21,913 nt of DNA. Origin: a virus. Of this stretch, positions 552 through 21,843 are shown piece by piece (within the stretch, counting starts at the first letter, position 1; each line of letters opens with the position of its first letter). The notes below the pieces were generated by a model. The model ran no database searches, had not been told where the DNA came from, and saw only the letters and a program-made list of their open reading frames with translations. Where the stretch lies: positions 1-21,913 of the IMG/VR virus record IMGVR_UViG_3300005289_000030, one strand, 5' to 3'. The position numbers were made by a program, and so were the translations under genes.

Positions 552-622
552 ACGGGCCGGGGCTCTTAGGGTATCTTCCCGCCATCTAGGTGCGCTGACC
601 GCGCGAAAGAGGAACCCGACCG

Positions 623-1297: not shown

Positions 1298-1298
1298 C

Positions 1299-1520: not shown

Positions 1521-1523
1521 GCT

Positions 1524-9256: not shown

Positions 9257-9287
9257 TTTGGATTACTCCCGTTGGTTGACGGGGGCC

Positions 9288-9316
9288 GGTCTAGGGCCTA
9301 ATGACGGTCGCGTCAA
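9288..9316 (-). promoter_or_regulatory. Promoter of the replication operon with TTGAC palindrome operator
   Basis: On the minus strand a TTGACG box (9316-9311) is followed after exactly 17 nt by TAGACC (9293-9288), leaving a leader of about 25 nt to the start at 9256. The -35 box is one half of the 16-bp near-palindrome ATGACGGTCGCGTCAA at 9301-9316. A protein bound here would block the polymerase. The site lies in the 76-nt divergent gap and might also affect the plus-strand gene at 9333, though on that strand no good -10 is seen at the right place. Confidence 0.6.
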
Positions 9317-9332
9317 TAGGGAGAAATTGACG

Positions 9333-10094
9333 GTGATAATCCGCGACGAAAATGGAATTGCACATATCGCGGGGCTGTCTGGCGGGCACGATTCGACCAG
9401 CATGTGTTTGCAGCTAAACGAACGCGAGCCCCGGCCCTACAATTACCTTTGCACGCCGACGGGCAACGAACTGCCCGAAATGTTCCAGTTCTGGCAATTA
9501 CTGGGCGACCTGTTGGGGCGGCGGCTTATTCCCATCATGAACGGCACGTTGTCGTCGGTCATCGCCGCCGAAGGCATGTTGCCGAACATTCGCGCCCGGT
9601 TCTGCACGCGGATTTTGAAAATCGTGCCCTACCGGGATTTTCTCATTCGGGAAGCGGCTAACGGTCCTATCGTATCCTATGTCGGTTTGCGCGCCGATGA
9701 GCCTGGGCGGGCCGGGGGCGTCTATGATGACATACCCGGCGTCACTATGCGTTTTCCGTTGCGAGAGTGGGGCCAAGGGGAAGACGAAGTGCAAGCCGAT
9801 CTAGCGGCACGCGGCGTCAAATGCCCAGACCGGACGGATTGCGCATGGTGCTACCACCAGCGGCTTGGTGAGTGGTGGGAACTGTGGTGGCACCACCGCG
9901 AACTTTATATGGATGCGGAACGACTGGAAATAAAAATGGGCCACACCTTCCGAACGCCGGGGCGTGACAGTTGGCCGTCGTCTTTGCGCGAACTTCGTTT
10001 GCGGTTTGAGGCCGGCGACGTTCCCGACAAATCCCTTAACCGCATGATGCGCGAACGCCAGTTGGTCGGGTCGTGCCGGGTGTGCCGTCTATGA
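9333..10094 (+). CDS. PP-loop ATPase / PAPS-reductase-like protein
   Basis: Reading from the GTG at 9333 gives 253 residues. SGGHDST (16-22) is the PP-loop of the PAPS reductase/N-type ATP pyrophosphatase family, with His in place of the usual Lys. ARFCTRILKIVP (89-100) and VGLRADEPGR (117-126) match the phage PAPS-reductase-like subfamily. Late cysteines, Cys164/170/173 and CRVC at 248-251, may hold an iron-sulfur cluster or zinc. Such enzymes activate a substrate with ATP, and relatives modify nucleosides or put sulfur into DNA (DndC). The substrate here is unknown. AGGGAG lies nine bases before GTG; a TTG at 9327 is too close. Longer upstream readings run antisense through the neighbouring gene. 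The stop overlaps the helicase start. Confidence 0.85.
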   Translation: MIIRDENGIAHIAGLSGGHDSTSMCLQLNEREPRPYNYLCTPTGNELPEMFQFWQLLGDLLGRRLIPIMNGTLSSVIAAEGMLPNIRARFCTRILKIVPYRDFLIREAANGPIVSYVGLRADEPGRAGGVYDDIPGVTMRFPLREWGQGEDEVQADLAARGVKCPDRTDCAWCYHQRLGEWWELWWHHRELYMDAERLEIKMGHTFRTPGRDSWPSSLRELRLRFEAGDVPDKSLNRMMRERQLVGSCRVCRL

Positions 10095-11806
10095 TGCAGG
10101 AACGCGCATACCAAAGCGAACTGATAGGACAGACGCAATTGCAATGGGCCTTGGGCCAATTGGTCGTGCTGGTGCAGCTATGCACCGGCGGCGGCAAGAC
10201 GCCCATATTGTCCCGGCTCATCAATGACCACAACGGCTTCGTCTGCGCCATTGCGCACCGTGACAAGCTGGTGGAGCAAATCAGCCTGACCCTAGCGCGG
10301 GCGGGCGTCCGACATGACATTATCGCGTCGGAAAAGACCAAGCGAATCATTGCCAAAAAGCACGTCAAGAAACTGGGCCAGTGCTTCTATGTGCCGGGCG
10401 CCCGGTGCCGGGTCGCGTCGGTCGATACGCTGGTGCGCGCGAAGGATTTGGAGAACTGGGCCAAGCAAGTCACGCTATGGGTCGTCGACGAAGGCCACCA
10501 CGTTTTGCGGGAAAACAAATGGGGCCGGGCCGTGGCCCAGTTCACGCACCCGCAATGCAAAGGGCTGGTGCTGACCGCGACGCCAGGTCGACCGGACGGC
10601 AAAGGGCTGGGGCGGCACGCCGACGGCTTCGTGGACGTCATGGTGCAAGGCCCGGCCATGCGCTGGTTGATCGACGAAGGTTATCTTTGCGATTATGACG
10701 TGGTTTGCCCGCCCAGCGACATGCGGGTGGAGGAAGCGCCCAAGGGCTCCGACGGTGAATATAGCCTAGCCCAGCGTCGCACGGCGGCCCGCAACAGCCA
10801 TATCGTGGGCGACGTGCCCAAGCATTACCAGCAATTCGCCGCGGGTCTGTCGGGTATCACCTTTTGCGGCGACGTCGAAACAGCGGTGGAAACGGTCGCA
10901 GCCTATCGCGCGGCGGGCGTGTCGGCCGAACTTATCACCGGCGAAACCGACCCGACCGTTCGGGACCAGATATTTGACCGGGCCGAAGCCGGGACGCTCC
11001 AGCAAATCGTGGCGGTCGACGTCATCAGCGAAGGCGTCGACATTCCGGCGCTACAGGTCGGTTCGTTCGCCCGCCTGACGGCCAGCATTATCACATGGCT
11101 GCAACAGTTGGGTCGCTTGCTGCGTCCCATCTATGCGCCCGGTTACGACCTGACCACGCGCGAAGGTCGACTGGCCGCCATCGCCGCTTCGATCAAGCCC
11201 CGCGCGCTGTTGATCGACCATATTGGCGGGTTCATCAATCCGAACTTGGGGCCGCCCGACAAGCCGCGCGAATGGTCGCTGGACCGACGCGAGAAGAAAG
11301 CCAAGGGCGAGGATGACGACGACATTCCGATGAAGGTTTGCGCGAACCCGTGGCAAAATTGTTTCAAGCCATACCCCCGGGTTTTGCGCGCGTGCCCGCA
11401 TTGCGGCTATCAGCCTGAACCGCTGGGCCGCGGCACGCCCGCCCATGTCGACGGCGACTTGCAACTTATGGACCCGTTTGAACTGGCCAAATTGCAGGGG
11501 CGAATCATTGACCCGCACATGACGCGCGCCGCGTTCGACGCGCAACAACTGGCGAAGGGTGCCGCGTCGACTTGGCTGAACAGCCATTGGGCCAGCTATG
11601 TGAAGACCGGCGGCGCCCAGCTTGCGTTACGCGAAAGCATGGACCGCTGGGCCGGTCAGCTTCACGCGTCCGGGCGGCCCGACCACGAAATTCAGCGGGA
11701 ATTTTTCTTGCGCTGGAAAGTGGACGTCGTGACGGCCCAGGCGTTGAGCGAAAAAGAGGCCATCGCGTTGAAAGAGCGCATTGACGGCGCGGTCAATAGG
11801 GCTTAG
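10091..11806 (+). CDS. DEAD/DEAH-type superfamily 2 DNA helicase
   Basis: The product is 571 residues. Motif I CTGGGKT (31-37), motif II DEGH (133-136), motif III TATPGR (162-167) and motif VI QLGRLLRP (339-346) define an SF2 helicase related to phage UvsW/RAD25-like enzymes. A four-cysteine zinc finger follows (Cys417, 424, 435, 438), then a charged helical C-terminal region. The ATG overlaps the stop of the PP-loop gene (ATGA). It would remodel or unwind DNA in phage replication, recombination, or at modified DNA. The last codons overlap the palindrome at 11781-11796 that controls the next gene. Confidence 0.92.
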   Translation: MMQERAYQSELIGQTQLQWALGQLVVLVQLCTGGGKTPILSRLINDHNGFVCAIAHRDKLVEQISLTLARAGVRHDIIASEKTKRIIAKKHVKKLGQCFYVPGARCRVASVDTLVRAKDLENWAKQVTLWVVDEGHHVLRENKWGRAVAQFTHPQCKGLVLTATPGRPDGKGLGRHADGFVDVMVQGPAMRWLIDEGYLCDYDVVCPPSDMRVEEAPKGSDGEYSLAQRRTAARNSHIVGDVPKHYQQFAAGLSGITFCGDVETAVETVAAYRAAGVSAELITGETDPTVRDQIFDRAEAGTLQQIVAVDVISEGVDIPALQVGSFARLTASIITWLQQLGRLLRPIYAPGYDLTTREGRLAAIAASIKPRALLIDHIGGFINPNLGPPDKPREWSLDRREKKAKGEDDDDIPMKVCANPWQNCFKPYPRVLRACPHCGYQPEPLGRGTPAHVDGDLQLMDPFELAKLQGRIIDPHMTRAAFDAQQLAKGAASTWLNSHWASYVKTGGAQLALRESMDRWAGQLHASGRPDHEIQREFFLRWKVDVVTAQALSEKEAIALKERIDGAVNRA

Positions 11807-11809
11807 GGC
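11781..11809 (+). promoter_or_regulatory. TTGAC palindrome and candidate promoter inside the end of the helicase gene
   Basis: TTGACGGCGCGGTCAA at 11781-11796 matches the shared operator; it is embedded in the final codons of the helicase gene. TTGACG can serve as -35, with the weak hexamer TAGGGC after 17 nt, placing a transcript start near 11816, just before the RBS of the next gene. It suggests that the gene at 11836 can be controlled separately from the helicase. Confidence 0.45.
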
Positions 11810-11835
11810 TGGACCGACCAATGGGAGAATTGACC

Positions 11836-12588
11836 GTGACGCAACTGGAATTTGAATGGGGCGAGCCTATCCCTGCCGACGGGACGAAACCGGAATGGCT
11901 GGCGGTTGGCGAATTGCCGATGCAATACCAGACGTCAGGACGGAGCCAAGATTGGTTCGATATGAAATGGGGGTGGGGCTTTGCTTGTGTCGGTAAAGCT
12001 TTTCGCTTGCGTGCCGACCATCCTTACTATGTGGCAAACGCGGCGGGATACAGCTATTGGCCAGGCGGCGATAGCGAACCCGTGGATTGGAACGGGCATA
12101 CCGTCCTGTTGCGAGACGGAAGCACCAGCGCCGTTCACGGTTTCACCGGGGACAACATTGTTTGGACACATGACGGCGCGTGGGACGACGTGATTGGCTA
12201 TCGGAAAAAGGCCAAATCAGGCGACCCGCCGAAAGCCCCGCCCGTAATGATCGACCATAGCGGCCCAAACCTGCCCCTTGGCCCCAACGACCCGCCCGGC
12301 TGGGCCGTCGTGCGCGCGTGGAACGAAGTTGGCGGGCTCGTCACGCCGCGGTCGGCAATCCTGGCGCTGGCCCGCTATATCGAAAAGCACGAAGCGGCGC
12401 CGGTCGACCCGGACGTGTTGGCCGTGCGGGATATCATATCGTCTTATTTTGCTGGCGAGGATGCCGCCCGCGTGGCGGAAGCGCTTTACGAAGGCGAATA
12501 CGACGAATTTAACGGGTTCGTCGCAGCCTTGACGGTCTATCGCCGGATTAAAGCGAACGGGGGCGTCGTCGATGTTCCATCTTCATAA
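11836..12588 (+). CDS. Unknown phage protein
   Basis: The product is 250 residues from the GTG at 11836, which has GGGAGA eight bases upstream; the ATG at 11821 (five codons earlier) overlaps that RBS and the TTG at 11830 is too close to it. The N-terminal 140 residues are rich in Trp, Tyr and Gly (for example WFDMKWGWGF), with alternating strand-like sequence that suggests a beta domain. A Pro-rich spacer follows, then a helical acidic C-terminal half. A middle stretch (TWTHDGAWDD-type region and NGHTVLLRDG) recalls small beta-barrel surface repeats, but I recognise no family. The next small gene overlaps its 3' end by 17 bases. Confidence 0.65.
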   Translation: MTQLEFEWGEPIPADGTKPEWLAVGELPMQYQTSGRSQDWFDMKWGWGFACVGKAFRLRADHPYYVANAAGYSYWPGGDSEPVDWNGHTVLLRDGSTSAVHGFTGDNIVWTHDGAWDDVIGYRKKAKSGDPPKAPPVMIDHSGPNLPLGPNDPPGWAVVRAWNEVGGLVTPRSAILALARYIEKHEAAPVDPDVLAVRDIISSYFAGEDAARVAEALYEGEYDEFNGFVAALTVYRRIKANGGVVDVPSS

Positions 12589-12715
12589 ATGGTCCGTCTG
12601 GTCGAACGTGTCGTGGATTGTCGACCCGAACAACCCCAGCGCCATCTTGGGCTATGTCCAGCACCGGCATTGCCGCAAGTGTCGCACGCTCCAGACAAGG
12701 TGCCGGGCTCTATGA
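12572..12715 (+). CDS. Cys/His-rich miniprotein (zinc-knuckle-like)
   Basis: The 47-residue product starts MFHLHKWSVW and carries HCRKC (33-37) and a later Cys43, with many His and basic residues. It overlaps the previous gene by 17 bases and its stop overlaps the next start as ATGA, so the overlaps on both sides support it as a real coupled gene. The layout of an N-terminal HxHxW stretch followed by a CxxC knuckle is like the miniprotein at 16685. The function is unknown; zinc binding is inferred from the cysteines. Confidence 0.5.
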   Translation: MFHLHKWSVWSNVSWIVDPNNPSAILGYVQHRHCRKCRTLQTRCRAL

Positions 12716-13524
12716 CCGCGCGCCCCATGCGCAGCGCCAGCGTCCGAAAAGCCTATGCCTCAAAAGGGGATGACGCCACATTGTCCCGCTGGGTCAAGGT
12801 GCCAGGCGAACACCGCGCGCCCGGCAAGCCCAAGCAAGGCGTGCTGAACGGGCTGGGCCATCCGACTGTCGAAGCGGGCCGGTCCATCTTTTACCGAAAG
12901 GGCGTCCACCCGGTCGGCTTCAATCCGCTGGTTTCCGGCCACAACAACGTTAAAATCGGCCGTGACGTTCGCAAGGGACGGTTGCGCGGCTATTGGATTT
13001 ACACGCTGTCGCTGGAGGAACGGGCGACGTGCCCCAGGTCGTGCGCTCATTGGCACGATTGCTACGGCAACAACATGCCGTGGGCGAAGCGTTACCAGCA
13101 CGGCCCAGAACTTGAACGCGCGGTGGAAGACCAGCTTGAACGGCTGATGACCAATCGTAACCGCCGGGGCATTCTGGTTCGGCTGCACGCGCTGGGCGAC
13201 TTCTATTCGGTCGACTATGTGCATTTCTGGGGCCGGATGCTGCGCAAGTTCCCGCGGCTGTCCATCTTTGGCTATACGGCCCGCGCGCCGGGCACGCCCA
13301 TAGGTGACGCCGTGTTCTATCTGGGCCACGCCATGCCCCGCCGGTTCGCCGTGCGCTGGAGCGATGGCAAGCGGAACTGGGGCGCAACCGTCAGCATCGT
13401 CGACGAAGCGGCCTGCCCGCCTGGCGCTTTCGTCTGTCCCGAACAGACCGGACGGACGCTCGCTTGCGCGACGTGCGGCGCGTGCTGGGGGACGTCCAAA
13501 AATGTCGCATTTATAGGGCACTGA
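12712..13524 (+). CDS. Gp88-like cysteine-rich phage protein
   Basis: The product is 270 residues from the ATG at 12712, which overlaps the stop of the miniprotein upstream. Eight conserved-looking cysteines form two groups: Cys107, 111, 117 (CPRSCAHWHDCYG) and Cys235, 242, 252, 255, 258 (CATCGACWG). Between them lie LHALGDFYS (158-166) and a repeated alternation of strands and helices. The pattern of an early CP-x-SC...CY block, a GDF motif, and a late CxxCxxCW block followed by an F-x-x-H end fits the 'gene product 88' family known from mycobacteriophages (function unproved). The cysteines suggest an iron-sulfur or zinc centre. A longer frame from 12589 adds residues with no start signal. 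Confidence 0.65.
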   Translation: MTARPMRSASVRKAYASKGDDATLSRWVKVPGEHRAPGKPKQGVLNGLGHPTVEAGRSIFYRKGVHPVGFNPLVSGHNNVKIGRDVRKGRLRGYWIYTLSLEERATCPRSCAHWHDCYGNNMPWAKRYQHGPELERAVEDQLERLMTNRNRRGILVRLHALGDFYSVDYVHFWGRMLRKFPRLSIFGYTARAPGTPIGDAVFYLGHAMPRRFAVRWSDGKRNWGATVSIVDEAACPPGAFVCPEQTGRTLACATCGACWGTSKNVAFIGH

Positions 13525-13527
13525 ACG

Positions 13528-13947
13528 ATGAGCGAAGCGGGCAACCAAAACCGGGTGCGCGAACATTACGCGGCCTTGGGCGCGCGGCTATGGCGCAACA
13601 ACTCGGGCGTCCTGAACGATGCCAACGGCCGGCCGGTGCGCTTTGGCCTGGCGAACGATAGCCGCGCCCTGAACGAACAGATAAAGTCACCCGACCTTGT
13701 GGGCTGGGTTCCCAAGCTGGTCACGCCCGACATGGTTGGCGACGTGGTGGCCGTCTTTTTCTCGCCCGAAATCAAACGGGACGGCTGGCGCTTTCCATCG
13801 CCCGGGCCGATCAAAGACGGCAAGGGCCGTCTGACCGAATATGGCCGGTGCATGGCACAAAAACGCTGGGCCGACATGGTTGTGCAAGAGGGCGGAATCG
13901 CCGGGTTTATGATCGACCCGTTGCGGGGGTTCGAAATAATAAAATAG
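13528..13947 (+). CDS. VRR-NUC domain nuclease
   Basis: The product is 139 residues. ALGARLWRNNSGV (16-28), SPDLVGW (54-60) with Asp56, and the EIK pair (Glu81, Lys83), followed by an AQKRWADMVVQEGGIAGF-type helix, match the VRR-NUC branch of the PD-(D/E)XK nucleases. Many phage members are small stand-alone enzymes thought to act as Holliday-junction or structure-specific endonucleases. It follows the Gp88-like gene by three bases. It probably trims or resolves replication and recombination intermediates together with the SF2 helicase and DUF2800 nuclease. Confidence 0.85.
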   Translation: MSEAGNQNRVREHYAALGARLWRNNSGVLNDANGRPVRFGLANDSRALNEQIKSPDLVGWVPKLVTPDMVGDVVAVFFSPEIKRDGWRFPSPGPIKDGKGRLTEYGRCMAQKRWADMVVQEGGIAGFMIDPLRGFEIIK

Positions 13948-13949
13948 GG

Positions 13950-13980
13950 TATTGACGGTGCCGTCAATAGCTGGCAAATG
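13950..13980 (+). promoter_or_regulatory. Perfect 20-bp palindrome operator and candidate promoter
   Basis: TATTGACGGTGCCGTCAATA at 13950-13969 has perfect 9-bp arms around TG and is the cleanest copy of the shared site. Reading TTGACG as -35, a 17-nt spacer leads to CAAATG, putting the transcript start near 13987 and the RBS GGGAG at 13993-13997 ahead of the ATG at 14007. It would control the three-gene cluster 14007-14792. Confidence 0.6.
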
Positions 13981-14006
13981 TCGTCTCAACAAAGGGAGTT
14001 GCCGAC

Positions 14007-14285
14007 ATGACCACCGCCAAGCTGATCTATTCCAACGGGCCGTTCGACGTTTACAAGGTGCGCCAGGTTCTTATCATCAATGAGAACGGCGAATTATTCT
14101 GCAATCTGCGCAAGAGCGATAACGGCTTTCACAACCCGGCGGGTTTCGTGGATGGCATCTTGGCCAGCCGCGCCGAAGCAAAGGCGGAATGGGCGGCCGT
14201 GTCGGATGAACGCAAGGCCCGGCTTGAAACCTATCTGGCATCGCGCCGCGGTCGCGTCGAAGCCCAGCCCCAGTTCATGTTTTAA
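14007..14285 (+). CDS. Small unknown phage protein
   Basis: The product is 92 residues. The first half is strand-rich with alternating charged and hydrophobic residues (IYSNGPFDVYKVRQVLIINE), the second half helical, with an Ala/Glu/Arg-rich segment (residues 52-85). It is the first gene of a three-gene cluster directly behind the perfect palindrome at 13950. The RBS GGGAG is ten bases before ATG. No family is recognised. Early position suggests a host-takeover or regulatory small protein, as inference only. Confidence 0.65.
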   Translation: MTTAKLIYSNGPFDVYKVRQVLIINENGELFCNLRKSDNGFHNPAGFVDGILASRAEAKAEWAAVSDERKARLETYLASRRGRVEAQPQFMF

Positions 14286-14298
14286 GGGAGAAAGACCG

Positions 14299-14463
14299 GT
14301 GGACGACCGCATTAAGGAACAACTGGCGGCGCTCGAAAAGCTGTTGCGCGACGCCGACGACCGGTTGGAACGGGTGGCGCCGTCTTTGCGCGTCCGCGCC
14401 CGTCGCCAGCGCAACGCCATCAATGCCGCGTGCAACGCTATGTTCAGGGCGGCTCGTGCATGA
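14299..14463 (+). CDS. Small coiled-coil-like protein from a GTG start
   Basis: The 54-residue product begins MDDRIKEQLAALEKLLRDA and continues with a heptad-like pattern of Leu at hydrophobic positions, then a basic stretch (RVRARRQR), so a short coiled coil is likely. GTG at 14299 has GGGAGA eight bases upstream; this start was chosen over an ATG at 14080, which lies inside the previous gene without an RBS. Its stop overlaps the next ATG (ATGA). The function is unknown. Confidence 0.55.
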   Translation: MDDRIKEQLAALEKLLRDADDRLERVAPSLRVRARRQRNAINAACNAMFRAARA

Positions 14464-14792
14464 CCCAGCAAGTCGAATTTGAACAGGACCGTGGCATTTA
14501 CGGCAAGAAATCCTGGACCGGATATTGCCCAATGCTGACCAGCCCGTTCGCCGTGTTCAAGGATGAAAAGGGCTGGGCGCTGGGCCACCGCAAAACCGGC
14601 CTGTCGGTCAACTCGCTTATTCCTAAGGGCCACCGCATCACGCGCAAGTCGCTGTTGGATTTGCTGACCCGGATGGAGCAGGCCGAACCCGAAGCTATGG
14701 CCGCCATGAACGAAGTGACCGGCTTTCCCATCCACAAGGATTACCGCTGGGCTGGTCAAAAGCTGATCGACTGGAGCCGGGCGCGCGGCTGA
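14460..14792 (+). CDS. Unknown phage protein
   Basis: The product is 110 residues from an ATG that overlaps the upstream stop. An N-terminal stretch rich in aromatic and charged residues (FEQDRGIYGKKSWTGY) is followed by strand-like sequence (FAVFKDEKGWALGHRKTG), then a helix with an RMEQAEPEAMAAM-type stretch. No family is recognised. It ends three bases before the stop of the convergent endolysin gene, and a hairpin covers both ends. Confidence 0.65.
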   Translation: MTQQVEFEQDRGIYGKKSWTGYCPMLTSPFAVFKDEKGWALGHRKTGLSVNSLIPKGHRITRKSLLDLLTRMEQAEPEAMAAMNEVTGFPIHKDYRWAGQKLIDWSRARG

Positions 14793-14808
14793 CCGTCAGG
14801 CCCGCGCC
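14781..14808. other. Imperfect hairpin spanning two convergent stop codons
   Basis: GCGCGCGGCTGAC at 14781-14793 can pair with GTCAGGCCCGCGC at 14796-14808 with two mismatches and a two-base centre. Each arm contains the stop codon of one of the two convergent genes. It may act as a compact bidirectional stop, but there is no T-run on either side. Confidence 0.35.
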
Positions 14809-15476
14809 TTATACGCCGCTTCCAACCGTGTGTCGTAAGCGTTCGCCGCGTAGGCAGTCCCGTTATAGCCGCGCGCAAAGGTCGCCCAGTCGCCCGCACG
14901 CAGCGCCGGCAAGAGCCCGTTACGGGTGACGAAATGCACGAACGCGTCAAGCTGGTCGCCTTCGGTCTGCGCCTGGCGCCAAGCGAACGCCCACGGACTG
15001 GCCGCGTCGCAGATGGCAAAATTCTCGCCCAGGATTTGAAAGCCGCCATAGCTGGCCGACGCAAAGCCCGCGTCAACGTCGAGCCCCACGGCGTCGAGCA
15101 GTTGCGCATAGCGGCCGTCCTGGCTGGCTGGATATAGTTTCTTGTTCCATGATTTTGACGAAATCTTGGGGTGCGATTTGTCGAACTTGCCCCCGGTGGC
15201 CCGGCTGAAACGGTGCGGTTCGAACAGGATGGTCGGGCGCCCATTGATGAACGGCGCGGCCGTGCTTTCGACGTCCCATACGGCCCAGACCTTCGCCGGC
15301 TCGACTTGCATGGCGCGCCCGGCCCGCACAACGTCCGCATCAGTCAGTTGATAATCTGGCCCGTCAGTCAGCGCCGACAGCACCGCCGTTCGCTCCATCG
15401 GCCCGTAAATTCCGTCAATCTTGCCCCGGTAATAGCCCATGCGGGCTAGGCTGCGCTGCAAATCGAAATGATCCAT
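14796..15476 (-). CDS. Endolysin: peptidoglycan-binding domain plus N-acetylmuramidase
   Basis: The product is 226 residues. Residues 5-36 form a peptidoglycan-binding type 1 repeat (LARMGYYRGKIDGIYGP region). From about 55 on it matches the N-acetylmuramidase family (DUF3380): VWDVES with probable catalytic Glu70, ILFEPHRFSRATGGKFD (83-99), and ASYGGFQILG (141-150). There is no signal peptide or SAR segment, so export would need a holin; holin-like genes are at the left end of the window. The ATG at 15476 is next to the shared TTGAC palindrome, and the upstream reading from 15494 starts inside it. The gene stands alone on the minus strand, away from the other lysis genes. Confidence 0.88.
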   Translation of the reverse strand: MDHFDLQRSLARMGYYRGKIDGIYGPMERTAVLSALTDGPDYQLTDADVVRAGRAMQVEPAKVWAVWDVESTAAPFINGRPTILFEPHRFSRATGGKFDKSHPKISSKSWNKKLYPASQDGRYAQLLDAVGLDVDAGFASASYGGFQILGENFAICDAASPWAFAWRQAQTEGDQLDAFVHFVTRNGLLPALRAGDWATFARGYNGTAYAANAYDTRLEAAYKARA

Positions 15477-15478
15477 GG

Positions 15479-15507
15479 TTGACCGTCCCGTCAATAGTGG
15501 TTAGATC
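15479..15507 (+). promoter_or_regulatory. TTGAC palindrome operator and promoter for the TetR-like operon, also abutting the endolysin start
   Basis: TTGACCGTCCCGTCAA at 15479-15494 is a copy of the shared operator. TTGACC, a 17-nt spacer and TAGATC at 15502-15507 form a good sigma70-type promoter, with a start near 15514 and the RBS AGGGGAA at 15521-15527. On the other strand the endolysin ATG begins only two bases from the palindrome, so a bound protein would also affect that gene. Confidence 0.6.
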
Positions 15508-15536
15508 GACCCTAACACGAAGGGGAATTATTGACT

Positions 15537-16004
15537 ATGCCTGACCCATTGCCGCCGACCGTGGTAATAGAGCCGGCTGGCTACGCCTTGAATGGGCGCC
15601 TATTCAGCAAGGAAGAAATGGCCGCCCAGCGGGTCGCATCAAACGACGCGGTGACGCCGGTTTATTACCGCGACGCCATTGCGCCGCTTCGCGTGCCGCT
15701 GGTCGACCAGCACAACAACGTCATGGGCCACGAACACCGCAAGGCGCGCGAACTGCTGATAGAACGCGTCTTTACCGACACGGATGGCGTCGTTTGGAGC
15801 CGCCCGACCGCTTGGGCCTATTATGCGGTCTGCGAAGCCCGGCACCAGTGGGAAATGATGGCGGGGGACGCCCGTTCCATTCTGGCCATGCTTGCCGACG
15901 CGAAGACCCCGGAAGGCATTGCGGCCGTCCAAGACGTGGCCCGCGCCTTTCTCGACAAGACCGCCCGTTCCCGAAATGTCGATACCGCCAAGGAACCGAC
16001 CTGA
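15537..16004 (+). CDS. Unknown phage protein, first gene of the TetR-like operon
   Basis: The product is 155 residues from the ATG at 15537 with AGGGGAA ten bases upstream; a TTG at 15531 is too near the RBS. The N-terminal half is strand-like with YALNGRLFSKEEM, then RDAIAPLRVPLVDQHNN, followed by helices with an Ala-rich C-terminus that contains an AVQDVARAFLDK stretch. No family is recognised. It is coupled to the TetR-like gene through a TGATG overlap, so it may act together with that protein. Confidence 0.65.
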   Translation: MPDPLPPTVVIEPAGYALNGRLFSKEEMAAQRVASNDAVTPVYYRDAIAPLRVPLVDQHNNVMGHEHRKARELLIERVFTDTDGVVWSRPTAWAYYAVCEARHQWEMMAGDARSILAMLADAKTPEGIAAVQDVARAFLDKTARSRNVDTAKEPT

Positions 16005-16333
16005 TGACCCTGACCGAATTTCACCTTGAACGCGACGATAAGATTTTGGCGGCCACCAAGCGCATTATCGAGCGCGAAGGGCTGACCAGCCTGACCCGTG
16101 ACAAGATTGCGACCGAAGCCGGGTTGTCGGCGGCCAGCGTGTCCAACTATGGCCTGACCAGCATTACCAACAGCCCGCCCCCGTCGGAGGGCTACCGGGC
16201 GCGCATTTTGCGCGGGCTCATGGCCCAGGCGGTCGAGCGCTCCGACCTTCGCATGGTTCGCGTGGGGCTGGTCGACGGTTGCTTGAAAGCCGATGATTTG
16301 CCCGACCATCTGCGCAAGGCCGTTGCGGCGTGA
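16004..16333 (+). CDS. TetR-like helix-turn-helix regulator (short)
   Basis: The 109-residue protein has a TetR N-terminal DNA-binding domain pattern: ILAATKRIIEREGLTSLT (14-31), then DKIATEAGLSAASVSNY (33-49) as the helix-turn-helix. The segment after it (60-109) is helical but far shorter than the ligand domain of cellular TetR proteins (about 200 residues in total), so it is a minimal regulator. TetR proteins bind short palindromes as dimers. The operon starts behind one copy of the TTGAC palindrome, which would allow autoregulation. I propose it as the factor for all seven sites, by inference. The ATG overlaps the upstream stop and the stop overlaps the next GTG. Confidence 0.75.
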   Translation: MTLTEFHLERDDKILAATKRIIEREGLTSLTRDKIATEAGLSAASVSNYGLTSITNSPPPSEGYRARILRGLMAQAVERSDLRMVRVGLVDGCLKADDLPDHLRKAVAA

Positions 16334-16506
16334 CGGACGCCCAAGCCTTGCTGGAAAAGCTGGCGCCCTACGCACGAAGCGTTTTGCAGGAACACCGGAC
16401 CCGCAACAAAAGCGATAGCGCTTGGCATACCCGGCGGATTGACGGCACGGGTCTGACCTATGGCGCGCTGCGCAAAATCGTCGAACTGGTGGACGGCGGG
16501 AAATGA
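16330..16506 (+). CDS. Small unknown protein from a GTG start
   Basis: The 58-residue product begins at a GTG that overlaps the TetR-like stop (GTGA) and ends in an ATGA overlap with the next gene. It has a helical N-terminus (MTDAQALLEKLAPYARSVL), a basic middle with AWHTRRIDG, and a short helix at the end. The chain of overlaps and the absence of in-frame stops support a real gene. The function is unknown. Confidence 0.55.
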   Translation: MTDAQALLEKLAPYARSVLQEHRTRNKSDSAWHTRRIDGTGLTYGALRKIVELVDGGK

Positions 16507-16688
16507 CCCAGCACGTCCGCATCGCTACCTGTCTTGAATGTGGAAGCGACGAACCGTTGCCGCGGCTGGTCTGCGCCCATTGCGAGACGCACAAGGGCTA
16601 TGGCGATGAAACGGGACGTGGTGGCGAAGCGCGGCCGATTGGTGAGATTGCCGCCCAGGTTGTCGAGCGGATAGCGGCAAACCTATGA
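16503..16688 (+). CDS. Zinc-ribbon miniprotein
   Basis: The 61-residue product has CLEC (10-13) and CAHC (24-27) knuckles spaced as in a zinc ribbon, then a helical acidic tail. Start and stop overlap both neighbours (ATGA). No specific family is recognised. A DNA, RNA or protein-binding role is possible. Confidence 0.6.
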   Translation: MTQHVRIATCLECGSDEPLPRLVCAHCETHKGYGDETGRGGEARPIGEIAAQVVERIAANL

Positions 16689-16807
16689 GCCGGCTGTTTT
16701 GCCTGTTCGGGCTGCACGCTTGGCACCCAACGGCGCGGGCTACAGATGGCCAGCGCATCAGCAAGCTAGTTTGCGTCCGGTGCGGCACGCGTAAATGGTG
16801 GAAATAA
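16685..16807 (+). CDS. Cys/Trp-rich miniprotein
   Basis: The product is 40 residues with an N-terminal CLFGLHAWHP stretch, a central polar part and a CVRCGTRKWW end. Cys6, His11, Cys30 and Cys33 could bind one zinc. The ATG overlaps the stop of the gene before. The layout resembles the miniprotein at 12572 (early His/Trp, late CxxC), and such tiny proteins are often missed in phage annotation. Confidence 0.5.
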   Translation: MSRLFCLFGLHAWHPTARATDGQRISKLVCVRCGTRKWWK

Positions 16808-16811
16808 GGGC

Positions 16812-16846
16812 GGGCGGGGACTGGCCGACCATCCGTTGCCCCGCCC
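16812..16846 (+). terminator. GC-rich hairpin after the miniprotein cluster, terminator- or attenuator-like
   Basis: GGGCGGGG at 16812-16819 pairs perfectly with CCCCGCCC at 16839-16846 across a 19-nt loop. It starts five bases after the stop of the gene ending at 16807. No T-run follows (TGACCATTT), so it may only reduce read-through or stabilise the RNA end. Confidence 0.4.
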
Positions 16847-16883
16847 TGACCATTTGCCGAAACCAAGGGGAGAGAATGCGGCT

Positions 16884-17105
16884 ATGGCTGGTGAACACTT
16901 AACCGAACGTCGAGAGGATTGCAACGTCGTGGAAGTCTGGAGCCGGGGCGGGTCGTCGCTCTTGCGCGTCACGTCTGACCCTTTGGTTCCTAAGCGCGTG
17001 AGGGTTCGCGCCCAGACAGACTTTGGCGAATGCCTTATGGTTTTCAAGCAAGACGAATTACTTGCCTTTGCCGTCGACGTGATAGCCAAATATGGGCCGC
17101 GCTGA
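16884..17105 (+). CDS. Small unknown phage protein
   Basis: The 73-residue product is strand-rich (NVVEVWSRGGSSLLRVTSD and an RVRVRAQTDFG stretch) with a helical end, suggesting a small beta fold. I chose the ATG at 16884 because of AGGGGAGAG at 16866-16874; an in-frame ATG at 16836 has no such signal. The next gene starts 14 bases before its stop. The function is unknown. Confidence 0.6.
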   Translation: MAGEHLTERREDCNVVEVWSRGGSSLLRVTSDPLVPKRVRVRAQTDFGECLMVFKQDELLAFAVDVIAKYGPR

Positions 17106-17304
17106 CCAAGACGCCCGTTGCAAGGGGTGCGCTCGCTATGACCGCGTATCTCTGACCTTTGAGTTTTGCTCATTCCATCGTAAACCAGTGCTGGCCCAGG
17201 ATGCCGCTTGCAACGACCATTGCAGCGCAAGCCCTTGGCACGACTGGCTATTGACGGCGCCGACAATGCGGCGCATGACGACCGGTAGGGAGAACCGACC
17301 ATGA
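17092..17304 (+). CDS. Cys/His-rich miniprotein
   Basis: The 70-residue product carries CKGC (10-13), CSFH (26-29) and CNDHC (40-44), a spacing that could hold one or two zinc ions. It overlaps the previous gene by 14 bases and its stop overlaps the next start as ATGA. Its 3' half also covers the palindrome at 17251, so its last residues may be constrained by the DNA site. The function is unknown. Confidence 0.5.
   Translation: MGRADQDARCKGCARYDRVSLTFEFCSFHRKPVLAQDAACNDHCSASPWHDWLLTAPTMRRMTTGRENRP
17251..17279 (+). promoter_or_regulatory. Variant TTGAC palindrome and weak candidate promoter
   Basis: TTGACGGCGCCGACAA at 17251-17266 differs from a perfect 16-bp palindrome at one base (A for T in the right arm). 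With TTGACG as -35, the hexamer after 17 nt is CATGAC, which is weak. It lies 35 bases before the start of the gene at 17301 and so could set a separate promoter for that gene and the primase-helicase. Confidence 0.4.
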
Positions 17305-17540
17305 CCGACCAACAGACCGTCGGGTTCATCTTGGAAACGGGCAAGCTGGACGCCAGCTATACGATTCCGATGATCCTGTTTTGCCCCATGTGCGGCACCC
17401 GTCACATTGACGAAGCGGCCTTTGCCGAAGTTCCCCACCACACGCACGCTTGCCAAGGTTGCGGGAACGTCTGGCGCCCGGCTAAGGTGAACACGCACGG
17501 GGTCCAGTTCCTGCCCGGCTACACGAACGCGAAGGGCTGA
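17301..17540 (+). CDS. Conserved phage zinc-ribbon protein upstream of primase-helicase
   Basis: The 79-residue product has CPMCGTRHID (28-37) and CQGCGNVWRPA (51-61), a zinc ribbon, ending GVQFLPGY. I recognise this as a small protein conserved across many proteobacterial phages, of unknown function. AGGGAG lies ten bases before ATG. It is five bases upstream of the primase-helicase, so it may be a replication accessory protein. Confidence 0.75.
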   Translation: MTDQQTVGFILETGKLDASYTIPMILFCPMCGTRHIDEAAFAEVPHHTHACQGCGNVWRPAKVNTHGVQFLPGYTNAKG

Positions 17541-17545
17541 CGTCT

Positions 17546-19927
17546 GTGTCAGATTGGTCTTTTTACGACAGGGGCTTTAGCCTCTTCCCATTAACGCCGC
17601 GCACCAAAAGCCCGGCGCTCGAAAGCTGGGAACCCTATCAGACGCAACGGGCGACGCCTGAATTGGTTGCATCGTGGGCGGCCCAGACGGGTTTCAACAC
17701 CGGCGTAGCGACCGGCACCGTATCCGACTGCATTGTGCTGGACGCCGACGGACTGATGGCGCGCACGATGATGGAAGCCCAAGGGCTACCGGACACGCTG
17801 ACCGTCGCCACCCCACGCGGCTGGCACTTCTATTTCCAACACCCCGGTTGGGAAGTGAAAAACCGGGCCGGGCGCGGCTGGACCAAAGACCTGAACGGCG
17901 GCGAAGGCTTTGACGGCTGGGACTTGCGCGGGGACGGGGGCTATGTCGTCGGGCCGGGCTCCTATTACCACCCAACCCCGGCCGAAGCCGCCAAGGGGAA
18001 GGTCGCCGGCTGGTATCGGATCGAACGGGACGTGCCCGTTGCCCCGGCGCCCGACTGGCTGTTGGCGCTGGTGTTTCCCAAGGCGCGCAAGGAAAACGCC
18101 CAAGCCAAGATTGCCGACGTGACGTCGGACTATGGCCGGGCTGCGCTCAACAGTGAATTTGCCGTGCTGACGTCGGCACGTGAAGGCGAAGTGAACCAGC
18201 GGGTCAACGATAGCGCCTTTGCCATCGGCCAGCTTGTCGGTGGTGGCGAAATCACCGTGGAAGAGGGCTGGGGCGCGCTACAGGAAGCGTTGGCGGTTCT
18301 GGGCATCCAAGACGAAGAGAAAGCCCAAGGCACGCTGGAACGCGGCTGGACGGCGGGCATGGAAGCCCCGCGGGCAGTCGAACACCACGAACGGGTCAGC
18401 GTCACGCCCGAACAAGCGCTGGGCACGCGCGCACCTGTCGCACCACCGCCGCCCGGTCCCGACGGCCAGATAGTTGCCGCGGCCCCTCCCCCGCCAGTCG
18501 AGCCGTCCACCGCCCTGGTGCGCGGCCAGACGATATGGCACGACGACATGGATGCGCTGTTTGCCAATTGCTGGTTCGTCCAGATGCGGGATGCCGTGTT
18601 TGTCAAAGGCATGGGCGTTCTGTCCCCCACGTCGTTCGACACGCTCAAAGGGGGTTTCGAGTTTCCCACGACCATAGAGGGAAGCAAAAAGACCCGTTCG
18701 GCATGGGACGCGTTCAGGCTGTCGCCGTCATGGAAATGCCCATGGGTCTTTGACGTCTGTTTCCGGCCCGACCGGACGCCCGGCGCGGTCATTGATATTG
18801 AGGGCTTGCCCTACATCAACAGCTATCAGCCGATAACGACCAAGCGTATCGCCGGCGACCCGTCCAAGTTCGTCGACCTGTTGCGCAAGCTGTTCCCCAT
18901 CCAGCGCGATTACGACATAATCACCACCTACATGGCGTCGCTGGTCCAGAACGTCGGCCGCAAGTTCCAATGGTGGCCAGTCATCCAAGGGGTGCAGGGC
19001 AACGGCAAGACGCTTATTCTGACCGTGTTGCAACACGCGGTCGGCAAGCGCTACACCTATTTGATTGACCCCGAAGTGCTGGGCAAAACGGCCAACCAGT
19101 TCAATAGCTGGGTCCAAGGAAATTTGCTGGTCGGCGTTGAGGAAATATTTGTCAGCGACCAGCGGCACATATTGGAAACGTTCAAGCCCATCGTGACCAA
19201 CGCGCGAACGCGGGTCGAGAAAAAGGGCAAGGATGCGACGACCGGCGATAACTATTGCAACGGCGTCATGCTGACCAACCATAAGAACGGCGTGCCCGTC
19301 ACTGACCGGGAACGGCGCTATGCCATTTTTTTCACGCCCCAACAGGACGCCGAAGACTTGGCGCGCGACGGCATGGATGGGGGATATTTTCCCGACCTTT
19401 ACGACTGGCTGCACGGCCGCGGGGCCTATGCCCATCTGGGCGAAGACTATGGGCTTGCCGTGGTCAACGACTGGCTGCACGGGCTCGCCCGGGTTGCGGA
19501 GTTCGACCCGGCCGCATTGTGCCAGCGCGCCCCCGCCACGTCCAGCCGCGCCGAAGCGGTCAGGGAATCGCTCGGGACGCTTGAACAGGAAGTGTTGGAG
19601 GCGGTCGAGGAACAGCGCGTGGGGTTCAAAGGCGGCTGGGTATCGTCGCACGCCCTGCGCAACCTGTTCCAGTCGTTGCGCATGACCATAGGACCGAAGC
19701 GCTATCGCTCGCTCATGGCGGCGGTAGGCTACGTGCCGCACCCCTCGCTTGCCGACGGCCGCGTGACGAACCCGCTGAACGATGGAACACGCCCCAGACT
19801 TTACGTGGCCAAGGGAACCCCCGAAGCGGCATTGCCAGCGGCCGACGTGCCCGCGGCGTTCGAAGCGGCCCAGACTGGCACGGTCGCCGTTGCACAAGGG
19901 AACGTCGTTCACTTGCGGCCCCGTTAA
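17546..19927 (+). CDS. Bifunctional primase-polymerase / SF3-type helicase
   Basis: The product is 793 residues from a GTG at 17546. The N-terminal Prim-Pol domain (about 5-175) shows VLDADG (64-69, catalytic Asp66 and Asp68), TPRGWHFYF (89-97, with His94) and WDLRGDGGYVVGPGS (125-139). A Pro-rich linker lies near 296-320. The C-terminal helicase has Walker A GVQGNGKT (482-489), Walker B-like LLVGVEE (527-533), sensor TNHKNG (577-582) with Asn578, and an arginine-rich DRERRY finger, as in DUF5906 phage/plasmid replication proteins. It would unwind the origin and lay down primers. The AT-rich origin candidate follows directly downstream. Only one Prim-Pol is seen, together with a separate family A polymerase. 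Confidence 0.92.
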   Translation: MSDWSFYDRGFSLFPLTPRTKSPALESWEPYQTQRATPELVASWAAQTGFNTGVATGTVSDCIVLDADGLMARTMMEAQGLPDTLTVATPRGWHFYFQHPGWEVKNRAGRGWTKDLNGGEGFDGWDLRGDGGYVVGPGSYYHPTPAEAAKGKVAGWYRIERDVPVAPAPDWLLALVFPKARKENAQAKIADVTSDYGRAALNSEFAVLTSAREGEVNQRVNDSAFAIGQLVGGGEITVEEGWGALQEALAVLGIQDEEKAQGTLERGWTAGMEAPRAVEHHERVSVTPEQALGTRAPVAPPPPGPDGQIVAAAPPPPVEPSTALVRGQTIWHDDMDALFANCWFVQMRDAVFVKGMGVLSPTSFDTLKGGFEFPTTIEGSKKTRSAWDAFRLSPSWKCPWVFDVCFRPDRTPGAVIDIEGLPYINSYQPITTKRIAGDPSKFVDLLRKLFPIQRDYDIITTYMASLVQNVGRKFQWWPVIQGVQGNGKTLILTVLQHAVGKRYTYLIDPEVLGKTANQFNSWVQGNLLVGVEEIFVSDQRHILETFKPIVTNARTRVEKKGKDATTGDNYCNGVMLTNHKNGVPVTDRERRYAIFFTPQQDAEDLARDGMDGGYFPDLYDWLHGRGAYAHLGEDYGLAVVNDWLHGLARVAEFDPAALCQRAPATSSRAEAVRESLGTLEQEVLEAVEEQRVGFKGGWVSSHALRNLFQSLRMTIGPKRYRSLMAAVGYVPHPSLADGRVTNPLNDGTRPRLYVAKGTPEAALPAADVPAAFEAAQTGTVAVAQGNVVHLRPR

Positions 19928-19957
19928 TTTATACAAATTGCTATAATTTACAAAATG

Positions 19958-19988
19958 GCCCTGTCGTTAAATTAACGGCGGGGCTTTT
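19958..19988 (+). terminator. Rho-independent terminator after primase-helicase
   Basis: GCCCTGTCGTTAA at 19958-19970 pairs with TTAACGGCGGGGC at 19972-19984 (two G-U pairs), followed directly by TTTTAATTT. It lies 31 bases after the primase-helicase stop codon and is the clearest intrinsic terminator in the window. It ends the long plus-strand early operon. Confidence 0.75.
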
Positions 19989-20004
19989 AATTTGTGCAAT
20001 TATT

Positions 20005-20044
20005 TATCGGGTTTTTCACCCGGTAAAAGTGGCGGTTTTCCGCC
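20005..20044. repeat. Two tandem hairpins in the origin candidate
   Basis: TATCGGGT at 20005-20012 pairs with ACCCGGTA at 20018-20025 across a TTTTC loop (one G-T pair), and GGCGG at 20031-20035 pairs with CCGCC at 20040-20044 across TTTT. They follow the terminator and precede the iterated repeats. They could be a primase start site, a further terminator or a protein-binding element. Confidence 0.5.
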
Positions 20045-20089
20045 GTTTCCCCGAAACCCGATAGAATTGAGTAGTGCTGCCTAGTGCGG

Positions 20090-20125
20090 GTGCGTGTGCG
20101 CACATACACACATGCACACACATAT
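20090..20125. repeat. 36-nt alternating purine/pyrimidine tract (possible Z-DNA or melting element)
   Basis: From 20090 to 20125 purines and pyrimidines alternate without a break, mostly GT/CA dinucleotides (GTGCGTGTGCGCACATACAC and on). Such tracts can adopt Z-DNA under negative supercoiling. Directly after it the sequence turns AT-rich (ATTGATATATAATTTATAG), suitable as an unwinding element. Confidence 0.6.
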
Positions 20126-20348
20126 TGATATATAATTTATAGGGTTATAGGGTTATCGGGAAAGAGAACGAAAAAACAATGACTTATGGTTTACCCGATA
20201 CGAAAGGTTATCGGGTTCTATCGGGAACGGCTCAAAATGGCCCGTGGCGGTCGGAGCGGGACGAATTGGCGGTGCGGGAAGTGTGGGCCGGGATTTGGGG
20301 TCGCTCCCCCTCGCCCGGGGGCATCGCGCGCACGCGTAGGTTCAAGCG

Positions 20349-20377
20349 TTGCGGCAAGCCGGGCGGCGCGATATATT
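20349..20377 (+). promoter_or_regulatory. Promoter for a leaderless small-terminase mRNA
   Basis: TTGCGG at 20349-20354 and TATATT at 20372-20377 are separated by 17 nt, a good sigma70-type pair. The expected start of transcription falls on or next to the ATG at 20384, six bases after the -10. No Shine-Dalgarno is present before that ATG, which fits a leaderless message. No TTGAC palindrome is present. Confidence 0.55.
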
Positions 20378-20383
20378 GGCCAC

Positions 20384-20851
20384 ATGACCGACCAGCCTGC
20401 ACCCGATTACGCCGACAGCTTGGAAGCCCAGTTGATTGCCGACTATGTGTCGGAGGGCCAAACGCTGGTCAGTGCGTGCAAGGCGCTGGGCGTCCCCCTG
20501 TCGACCTTTTACGACCGCCTGGGCCGTAGCGAGCGGCTACGGGAAATGATGGAGAAAGCCCGCGATAGCGGATACGACGCGATAGCCAACGAATGCCTGG
20601 AAATTGCCGACGACGCGACGTTGGACACGATAGAAACCCGGTTTGGCCCCAAGCCTGACAAGGAATGGTTGGCGCGGTCGAAACTTCGTGTTGAGACGCG
20701 GCTAAAGCTGTTGGCCAAGTGGCATCCGAAGAAATACGGCGAAAAAATACAGGTCGAACAAAAGACCGCTACCGTTGCCATTCCCGTGACGGACGACCCG
20801 ATAGCGGCCCAGCGCGCTTATGAAGAACTGATGAAGGGATACGACAGCTAG
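20384..20851 (+). CDS. terS: Terminase small subunit
   Basis: The product is 155 residues from the ATG at 20384. Residues about 16-46 hold a helix-turn-helix (LIADYVSEGQTLVSACKALG, then LSTFYDRLGRS), followed by ARDSGYDAIANECLEIADD and then WLARSKLRVETRLKLLAKW, leading to HPKKYGEKIQV. This order matches the small terminase proteins of many proteobacterial siphophages, which recognise packaging sites on DNA and assemble as a ring. The start was chosen because the domain begins there and a good promoter puts the RNA start at the ATG; longer in-frame starts (20186) lack an RBS and have low-complexity sequence. The large subunit is not next to it: the downstream gene is convergent and ParB-like. 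Confidence 0.85.
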   Translation: MTDQPAPDYADSLEAQLIADYVSEGQTLVSACKALGVPLSTFYDRLGRSERLREMMEKARDSGYDAIANECLEIADDATLDTIETRFGPKPDKEWLARSKLRVETRLKLLAKWHPKKYGEKIQVEQKTATVAIPVTDDPIAAQRAYEELMKGYDS

Positions 20852-21705
20852 GCGTTCCCGTTCGGCGGCGCACCGGCCAGCAACGGCAAGCGCGTGCTGA
20901 CCCGGATGGATTTGAGCGAGCGGCCAGACCGAAAGGCGTTCCAGCCGGAAAAGATGACCGACGCTTTCTTGGCCGCCCCGGACTTTCCCATGTTGAGCAA
21001 CCTGGCCCGAACCACATAGGCGGGGTCTGTCTCTTCCAACAGTTCGCCCTTGGCCACCTTCGTAATAAATTCTTCGGCCGCCGGTTCGTCGATTTCCTCC
21101 AGAACCGCGTGACAAAACCCCAAGACGCCGGGCGCCACCAGCGTTTGCACCGTTTCCTTGAACTGGAGCGCCAGCGCCGCCGACTTTTGGATGACGTCGC
21201 GGTGTTCGTGGTAAAATTCCAGCACTTCGGCGTTGGTCGGCTTGGCCGTGTCCCGTAGCGCTTCCCCTTCGTTGCGCCGGTAGGCCAGCATGAGCCGGGC
21301 GATATTGGCGCACGTCCGGGCGTTGGGCTCGCCTTCAATCCCCAGATAGTCCCCCGCCGTGCGCGGCACGCCCTGCCCCATCGTCGCCATGGCCAGCGGG
21401 TGGACCCCCAGCACCAACAGCACGTCCACCGCCGCTTCGGTGCCTTGGATGGCCAAACAACGATGCTGGCCGTCTATCAGCTTGCCTTCGCTCGAAATAA
21501 TCATGGGTTCGCCATTCAAGACCCAGTGGCCGCCTTCCATGTCGGCGCGGTAGCGGGCGACGCGGGTTCGCCTGACGTCGCGGTTGGTGGCGGCCCGGGC
21601 CAGCAATTCGGTGGCCATGGCGCTGTCCAGACGAACGACGCGGGCGATGGGCTTGGTCGCCTTGGCGGCCTGGTCAATGAGTTTTTCAATCTGATGGTCG
21701 GTCAT
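20848..21705 (-). CDS. ParB-like (ParB/Srx N-terminal domain) phage protein
   Basis: The product is 285 residues. NRDVRRTRVARYRADMEGGH (41-60), WVLNGEPMIIS (61-71) and DGQHRCLA (78-85) are the ParB/sulfiredoxin-fold signature seen in many phage proteins annotated as ParB-like nuclease. Asp78-Gly-Gln-His-Arg82 is the key motif, the ParB-family CTP/ATP-binding block. The helical C-terminal ~190 residues are not recognised. I chose the ATG at 21705 because GAGGAT lies upstream; a reading from 21795 starts inside the palindrome and lacks an RBS. It may partition or mark DNA, or regulate. Its promoter overlaps the operator at 21770. Its stop and the terS stop share the palindrome CTAG. Confidence 0.8.
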   Translation of the reverse strand: MTDHQIEKLIDQAAKATKPIARVVRLDSAMATELLARAATNRDVRRTRVARYRADMEGGHWVLNGEPMIISSEGKLIDGQHRCLAIQGTEAAVDVLLVLGVHPLAMATMGQGVPRTAGDYLGIEGEPNARTCANIARLMLAYRRNEGEALRDTAKPTNAEVLEFYHEHRDVIQKSAALALQFKETVQTLVAPGVLGFCHAVLEEIDEPAAEEFITKVAKGELLEETDPAYVVRARLLNMGKSGAAKKASVIFSGWNAFRSGRSLKSIRVSTRLPLLAGAPPNGNA

Positions 21706-21756
21706 GGTGGCATCCTCTTCAACTACCGGGCAAGCCATTAAGCCCGGAATACCGCC

Positions 21757-21785
21757 ATTTTCTGCCCTATTGACCGCCGCGTCAA
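21757..21785 (-). promoter_or_regulatory. TTGAC palindrome operator and promoter of the ParB-like gene
   Basis: TTGACCGCCGCGTCAA at 21770-21785 is a copy of the shared site. On the minus strand TTGACG, a 17-nt spacer and GAAAAT (21762-21757) form a promoter with a leader of about 45 nt before the ATG at 21705. Confidence 0.5.
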
Positions 21786-21814
21786 TACTGCGCAAATGGG
21801 CTATGCCAAAGGTA

Positions 21815-21843
21815 TTGACCCCGCCGTCAACATGCCGTAATCG
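21815..21843 (+). promoter_or_regulatory. TTGAC palindrome operator and promoter toward the right edge
   Basis: TTGACCCCGCCGTCAA at 21815-21830 matches the shared operator. TTGACC, 17 nt, then TAATCG at 21838-21843 gives a start near 21850, followed by GGATGGGGAG and the ATG at 21873. It is the second site in the same divergent gap, 45 bases from the site at 21770. Confidence 0.55.

Follow-up and report, generated by a model that had tools for sequence, protein, structure and literature searches.

A palindrome fused to early promoters and its putative TetR-type partner in a tailed-phage fragment and its relatives

Does a short palindrome that recurs before the early genes of a phage mark promoters under a single regulator and, if so, which protein would bind it? 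The question is raised by the IMG/VR virus record IMGVR_UViG_3300005289_000030, a tailed-phage fragment with a GC content of 62% that was analyzed over its entire length of 21,913 bases (here referred to as the window) and that carries several copies of the 16-bp element TTGAC-N6-GTCAA. Our reading, to which we give a probability of about three in four on the basis of sequence comparison, is that these palindromes are operator/promoter elements of one regulon and that the phage's own TetR-type protein would be its autoregulated, Cro-like early repressor.

Enrichment and conservation of the palindrome

The exact form of the palindrome was found five times in the window, compared with 0.015 expected, and none of 1,000 dinucleotide shuffles reached this number. 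With up to two mismatches allowed, there were 22 matches versus 6.67 expected, a figure reached by 0 of 100 shuffles. When all palindrome arms of 4 to 6 nt were screened without bias at every gap from 0 to 16, TTGAC with a gap of 6 was the most enriched palindrome type of the window (5 versus 0.036; p 5e-10). Thus, the genome scan against shuffled sequence that a preliminary description of this DNA had proposed revealed strongly over-represented sites, clustered 35 to 80 bp before start codons. The seven 16-mers listed in that description were all recovered in place, five with exact arms (11781, 13952, 15479, 21770, and 21815) and two with one mismatch, ATGAC at 9301 and GACAA at 17251. That all sites lie at gene boundaries is correct for seven of nine, the one-mismatch sites at 6944 and 21662 both being intragenic, and the supposedly perfect 20-bp palindrome at 13950-13969 (TATTGACGGTGCCGTCAATA) does not match its own reverse complement at its two middle positions. 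The site at 21662, for which no conserved position was seen, was set aside as probably due to chance.

No close DNA relative of the window was present among 50,697 phage records (INPHARED), and a scan of genome contigs found neither a host nor a prophage relative. A single-protein scan of viral contigs with the TetR-like gene gave no matches, and relatives were reached via the primase and then via profiles. Thirteen IMG/VR loci were retrieved by the primase (41 to 48% identity) and one, L138, by the ParB-like gene (83%), while the named phages were retrieved by polymerase, primase, or regulator. The same unbiased screen placed the palindrome at the top (counted as TTGAC with a gap of 6 or the inner forms TGACG, TGACA, or TGACC with a gap of 4) in records G004, G005, G006, G008, and G015 as well as in Klebsiella phage JD001, Escherichia phage ZCEC13, Pectobacterium phage PEAT2, Acinetobacter phages LAPP1 and Scuro, and Pseudomonas phages MR14 and vsMR. 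TGAC with a gap of 6 ranked first in G010 and G013, and the motif was weak or absent in SteB2, G009, G011, Vib97.13, VP_EVC, TPWB08, and Susan. G015, retrieved purely by motif-matching DNA, has eight exact sites, a related primase (57% identity), and the regulator.

Sites recur at the same gene junctions as in the window, with proteins that are only 27 to 50% identical. These junctions are the one before the gene for the single-stranded DNA (ssDNA)-binding-like protein, the divergent early region (JD001 33474, PEAT2 10491, ZCEC13 38668, Scuro 26265, and MR14 31335), and the 3' end of the helicase gene, as at window position 11781 (G003, G004/G005, MR14, PEAT2, and JD001). Likewise, L138 has the 21770/21815 pair at 3941/3986, with an identical 45-bp spacing.

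The intragenic site at 6944 is probably an operator and not a chance match, its position being conserved in seven distant relatives. It lies 91 to 103 bp before the end of the exonuclease gene in the window, G012, G003, G008, Scuro, SppYZU01, and vsMR; the counterpart in MR14 is found 61 bp before the end of the exonuclease match, and those in JD001, PEAT2, and ZCEC13 are 7 bp past it. The amino acid sequence encoded at this place keeps a conserved motif, G[VI]DxxVI, and this biases the DNA toward TTGAC..GTCAT. Eight phages use the exact operator codons for the motif, while JD001 and LAPP1 encode the same amino acids with non-operator codons and carry their counterpart of the site outside the exonuclease gene. 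Given this codon choice across phages, mere coding chance was dropped as an explanation; conservation is partly due to protein constraint, and the codon choice suggests selection on the DNA too.

The absence of sites near late genes, also claimed in the preliminary description, applies to the window but does not extend to some Jedunaviruses, in which one site precedes a baseplate gene: one exact palindrome is found before the baseplate spike gene of Jedunavirus-like phages (L182:90-105, L188:42946-42961, and L189:23698-23713). In JD001 and ZCEC13, sites are also found before small genes inserted among the structural genes on the opposite strand.

Two other repeats emerged in these records. In G011 (L173-L175), the unrelated dispersed repeat GGCGCC-N9-GGCGCC occurs 8 times versus 0.016 expected, and over the whole record of JD001 (L182), TATA-N3-TATA is strongly over-represented (10 versus 0.36), perhaps tied to -10 boxes.

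Promoter geometry and arm asymmetry

In eight annotated genomes, with the annotated start codons accepted as given, 25 of 34 exact sites are followed by a start codon at a distance of 35 to 80 bp (2.1 expected; p 2e-23), as are 53 of 100 sites with at most one mismatch (6.1 expected). The sites are centered ca. 50 bp upstream of start codons. When sites were oriented toward the gene and the relatives pooled, the mean match to TATAAT was 3.07 of 6 positions for hexamers spaced 17 from the first arm, versus 1.3 to 2.2 at other spacings from 10 to 25. The layout of arm and -10 is exemplified in JD001 by TTGACGGCGGCGTCAAggtgggtTATAGT, and clear promoters of this phage are TTGACGGCGGCGTCAAGGTGGGT-TATAGT and TTGACGACCTCGTCAGTATGGTG-TAGAGT. 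The -10-like hexamer after 17 nt that had been noticed in the window is weak there, most boxes scoring 2 to 3 of 6, but very clear once relatives are pooled.

The two arms are not equally conserved. Among one-mismatch sites before a single start codon (n = 25), the change affects the far arm in 23 and the -35 arm in 2 (p 2e-5), and at window position 17251 the mismatch likewise falls in the arm distal to the -35. This asymmetry suggests that a factor different from sigma70 maintains the far arm, with the -35 arm doubly constrained, by the polymerase and a binder, and the far arm by the binder only. Polymerase alone would not preserve GTCA in the spacer.

The candidate regulator and the gene content of the window

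The protein proposed as the binder is encoded at 16004-16333. It resembles phrog_8723 (E 1e-11) and matches Pfam TetR_N (PF00440) with an E value of 1.4e-4 and 22 bits, under the curated cut-off of 24. The AlphaFold model has a predicted local distance difference test (pLDDT) score of 90, with helices at residues 3-25, 32-39, and 43-47 plus three more. A ten-member profile (A3) aligns with the N-terminal part of numerous TetR structures (best E 2e-11), including that of RutR (6z1b; E 3.8e-6), while Foldseek searches against the PDB gave weak matches only, all to TetR proteins and none with an E value below 0.001 (best 0.07). The protein thus has the N-terminal three-helix helix-turn-helix (HTH) of the TetR type. 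The C-terminal ligand-binding and dimerization domain is not present in the 109-aa protein, the profile matches spanning only the first 60 to 90 residues of TetR chains. With the HTH present and the ligand domain absent, we regard it as TetR-type in its HTH and not as a full TetR regulator.

In most relatives the gene is conserved upstream of the primase. Orthologues near the primase are annotated as TetR regulators in JD001, ZCEC13, SppYZU01, Scuro, and SteB2; the TetR-like gene of PEAT2 (L188:14195-14479) is unannotated in the public record and has an exact operator sequence directly upstream, and the candidate of MR14 has only 77 aa. TGAC-N6-GTCA was enriched in 16 of the 18 phages with a close regulator homologue (A3 profile score of at least 80 bits), and 13 of the 18 have a site 41 to 80 bp upstream of the regulator gene itself. 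In those named phages whose homologue is distant (Vib97.13, VP_EVC, SteB2, TPWB08, and Susan), the motif was absent or marginal.

A blind retrieval led to the same protein. The pattern TTGACG-N4-CGTCAA-N7-TATA recovered 67 viral DNA stretches (65 contigs) and an arm-swapped control with the same -10 recovered 19. Excluding JD001 and PEAT2, the regulator was detected at an E value below 1e-22 in 14 of 63 pattern contigs, many of the negative ones being short fragments, versus 0 of 19 control contigs. Within these 14 contigs, the site lies 42 to 72 bp before the regulator match in 8 and 210 to 272 bp before it in 4 more, which probably have an N-terminally extended protein. A looser 20-mer set yielded the regulator in 7 of 50, and a second control palindrome gave two contigs only, too few for use alone. 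Conserved, usually with its own operator, and co-occurring with the motif, the TetR-like gene is the one that putatively encodes the binder, as the preliminary description had suggested.

The features of the window are listed in Table 1; the early status of the genes bearing the sites is read from gene content. The gap between the primase and the small terminase, both in the rightward block, (19928-20178) is AT-rich with repeated TATCGGG words and is a candidate replication origin.

Table 1. Palindromic sites, candidate regulator, and genes of the window
Feature	Position	Strand	Sequence	Remarks
Candidate operator/-35	6944..6959	-	TTGACGCCACCGTCAT (minus strand)	One mismatch; overlooked in the preliminary description; within 3' end of DUF2800 exonuclease gene, 120 bp upstream of ssDNA-binding-like gene
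Candidate operator, divergent early region	9301..9316	-		Minus-strand promoter TTGACG-N17-TAGACC for 8423-9256; also overlaps plus-strand -10 (TTGACG at 9276, TAATGA at 9299) for PAPS-reductase-like gene
Candidate operator/-35	11781..11796	+	TTGACGGCGCGGTCAA	Final helicase codons; 47 bp upstream of gene 11836
Candidate operator/-35	13952..13967	+	TTGACGGTGCCGTCAA	47 bp upstream of gene 14007; with flanks, 18/20 positions palindromic
Candidate operator/-35	15479..15494	+	TTGACCGTCCCGTCAA	-10 TAGATC; 50 bp upstream of two-gene operon whose last gene is the TetR-like regulator
Candidate operator/-35	17251..17266	+	TTGACGGCGCCGACAA	42 bp upstream of gene 17301; primase comes next
Candidate operator, paired	21770..21785	.	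TTGACCGCCGCGTCAA	Minus-strand promoter TTGACG-N17-GAAAAT for ParB-like gene
Candidate operator, paired	21815..21830	+	TTGACCCCGCCGTCAA	49 bp upstream of gene starting at 21872
Small HTH protein, TetR-type N-terminus	16004..16333	+		109 aa; proposed operator binder; phrog_8723-like
Regulator operon gene 1	15537..16004	+		No function assigned; directly precedes TetR-like gene
Prim-Pol/DUF5906 primase-helicase	17546..19927	+		Early-module marker; Pfam
Tail/lysis-side small genes and GDSL lipase-like protein	37-3172			
DNA polymerase A	3358-5649			Leftward block
ssDNA-binding-like protein	5891-6832			Leftward block
DUF2800 exonuclease	6853-8007			Leftward block
Gene 8423-9256	8423-9256			Leftward block
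PAPS-reductase-like protein				Rightward block, before helicase
Helicase	10073-11806			Rightward block
GP88-like protein				Rightward block, after helicase
VRR-NUC-like gene (our naming)	13528-13947			Rightward block
Muramidase	14796-15476			Leftward
Small terminase	20384-20851			
ParB-like gene (our naming)	20848-21705			Leftward

Competing readings and known systems

The idea of one operator and one regulator, already put forward in the preliminary description, gains support from enrichment, position, and relatives, from which binding and regulation are predicted. In the mechanism that we propose, the gene-side arm TTGAC[G/A/C] acts as the -35 hexamer in promoters of the host sigma70 type, whose -10 hexamer follows 17 bp on, and the second arm serves the DNA-binding protein only. 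Upon phage entry, host sigma70 polymerase would read every early promoter. The regulator, expressed from one of them, would then bind the palindromes, probably as a symmetric dimer, and by sitting on the -35 box exclude RNA polymerase, so that its accumulation would shut all early promoters, among them its own, more or less simultaneously. A repressor is preferred over an activator because the relatives have -35 and -10 hexamers that are close to consensus and ideally spaced. The annotations of the motif-bearing phages JD001, PEAT2, ZCEC13, Scuro, MR14, LAPP1, and SppYZU01 list no integrase (the window being a fragment), which makes a role in lysogeny unlikely there.

Several observations weigh against this reading. 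In the window, 518 bp separate the operator from the regulator gene, which comes second in its operon, and the -10 boxes are poor (2 to 3 of 6), as we infer to be common in GC-rich genomes. The relatives are not independent (JD001, ZCEC13, LAPP1, and PEAT2 are mutually close, and G004/G005 look like one phage), so that p values are overstated; the 80-bit threshold was chosen after the data were seen, and the contrast in the blind retrieval has a Fisher p of only 0.012, with two more unsearched control contigs counted as negative. The two phages lacking the motif despite a close homologue are a 6.7-kb fragment and G009, whose homologue scores 118 bits and has an altered recognition helix (GLVLHYY versus forms such as GSVNHHW). 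Conversely, vsMR (a 31-kb record) has the motif and no detected homologue. Finally, the palindrome before the baseplate gene differs in geometry, with a TATACT -10 just 13 nt past the arm, and the proposed binder may act differently on the late operon behind it. In G009 (L170-L172), TGTG-N2-CACA is present in 8 copies versus 0.86 expected; as a replacement operator it would represent a possible switch, but no tie to promoters was found and it was not retained.

The same protein might instead activate early or middle promoters from the same sites, or be a dual regulator, which we consider unlikely. TetR-type proteins are able to activate, FasR being described as an activator (PMC7382501), and the baseplate-gene site of the Jedunaviruses is placed between a poor -35 and the -10. 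However, the sites are near-consensus -35 hexamers at the ideal 17-bp spacing, where no activator is required and where occupancy would block sigma region 4. It is more doubtful still that a host regulator binds, for example, a RutR-like TetR protein whose operator the phages display. The consensus of the RutR operator, TTGACCAnnTGGTCAA, shares outer arms and spacing with the phage motif, although the inner CCAnnTGG does not match. RutR has a related HTH but is a host protein of ca. 220 aa with a ligand domain, while the phage proteins have 77 to 167 aa and lack one. In E. coli, the RutR site is a palindrome of ca. 16 bp (PMC10891134). The motif tracks the phage TetR-like gene over at least four host genera (Klebsiella, Pectobacterium, Acinetobacter, and Pseudomonas) and is missing from most phages that share the module but whose homologue is distant or altered.

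Slightly less probable again is binding by another phage protein, such as the ParB-like one, or a function of the palindromes as parS-like or replication sites. In favor of it, the 21770/21815 pair precedes the ParB-like gene and recurs in L138. Transcription control is indicated instead by the invariant arrangement of -35 and -10 and by the location of the sites ahead of start codons, and the regulator gene itself bears a site in most relatives. We give the least credit to the idea that the sites are merely strong promoters, or RNA hairpins or terminators, with no protein partner for the palindrome. Half of each site is indeed a -35 box, and a terminator scan flagged one site (13969-13950), but sigma70 has no need of the GTCAA in the spacer, which is conserved in register, and the arm-swapped pattern was far rarer (19 stretches versus 67). 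The terminator and RNA versions were ruled out, the stems lacking T runs and lying at the -35 position before genes, with no Rfam match for the palindrome sites.

Dispersed operators at early promoters are also found in phiC31, as conserved inverted repeats, and in P1, as c1 operators. They resemble the present sites in arrangement, and phiC31 also in the inverted repeats, but serve lysogeny repressors of temperate phages and differ in sequence and repressor family. Lambda Cro is a small, autoregulated phage HTH protein that turns early promoters down, as proposed here; it acts at two operator regions as part of a lysogeny switch and is not TetR-like. In phages L5 and Bxb1, one phage HTH protein (repressor gp71/gp69) recognizes dozens of dispersed stoperators, mostly intergenic or at gene ends, which are 13-bp asymmetric sites in temperate phages, proposed to block elongation (PMC3029335). 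The present sites are dispersed and at gene starts, with a single binding protein predicted. Unlike stoperators, which have a fixed orientation to transcription and a different consensus (GGTGGMTGTCAAG), they are 16-bp palindromes fused to the -35, in phages that have no annotated integrase and whose presumed binder is of the TetR type at its N-terminus. The sequence TTGACTTYCMTGTCAA occurs three times in the AT-rich phage contig L067 (record G017), which has no TetR-like match and is possibly an independent system sharing the -35-overlapping design.

What appears to be new here is a palindrome fused to the -35 across the whole early set, with a small TetR-type partner, spread over distant, apparently virulent phages. 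In the literature searched, which left most subscription journals outside, there was no earlier description of a phage TetR-type regulon or of Jedunavirus operators. In this size class, many virulent phages encode neither a polymerase nor a sigma factor, and their switch from early to late transcription has largely gone unexplained. The same is stated for T5 (PMC7472727).

Somewhat less firmly than the reading of the palindromes themselves, we favor the broader view that a ligand-domain-free TetR-type protein of 77 to 167 aa is the master early shut-off across a wide range of gammaproteobacterial phages that appear to be virulent, among them the Klebsiella Jedunavirus group, and also in phages such as that of the window, with one 16-bp element as both -35 box and operator and with accessory early genes among the structural genes carrying their own copy. 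If so, one small protein and one 16-bp site would make up the temporal switch of a family to which frequently isolated Klebsiella phages belong, and every early promoter would be predictable from sequence. These phages would also offer a small set of repressors and operators that varies naturally (the sixth base being G, A, or C), and phrog_8723 would gain a function, as would the gene annotated as "TetR family transcriptional regulator" in these phages.

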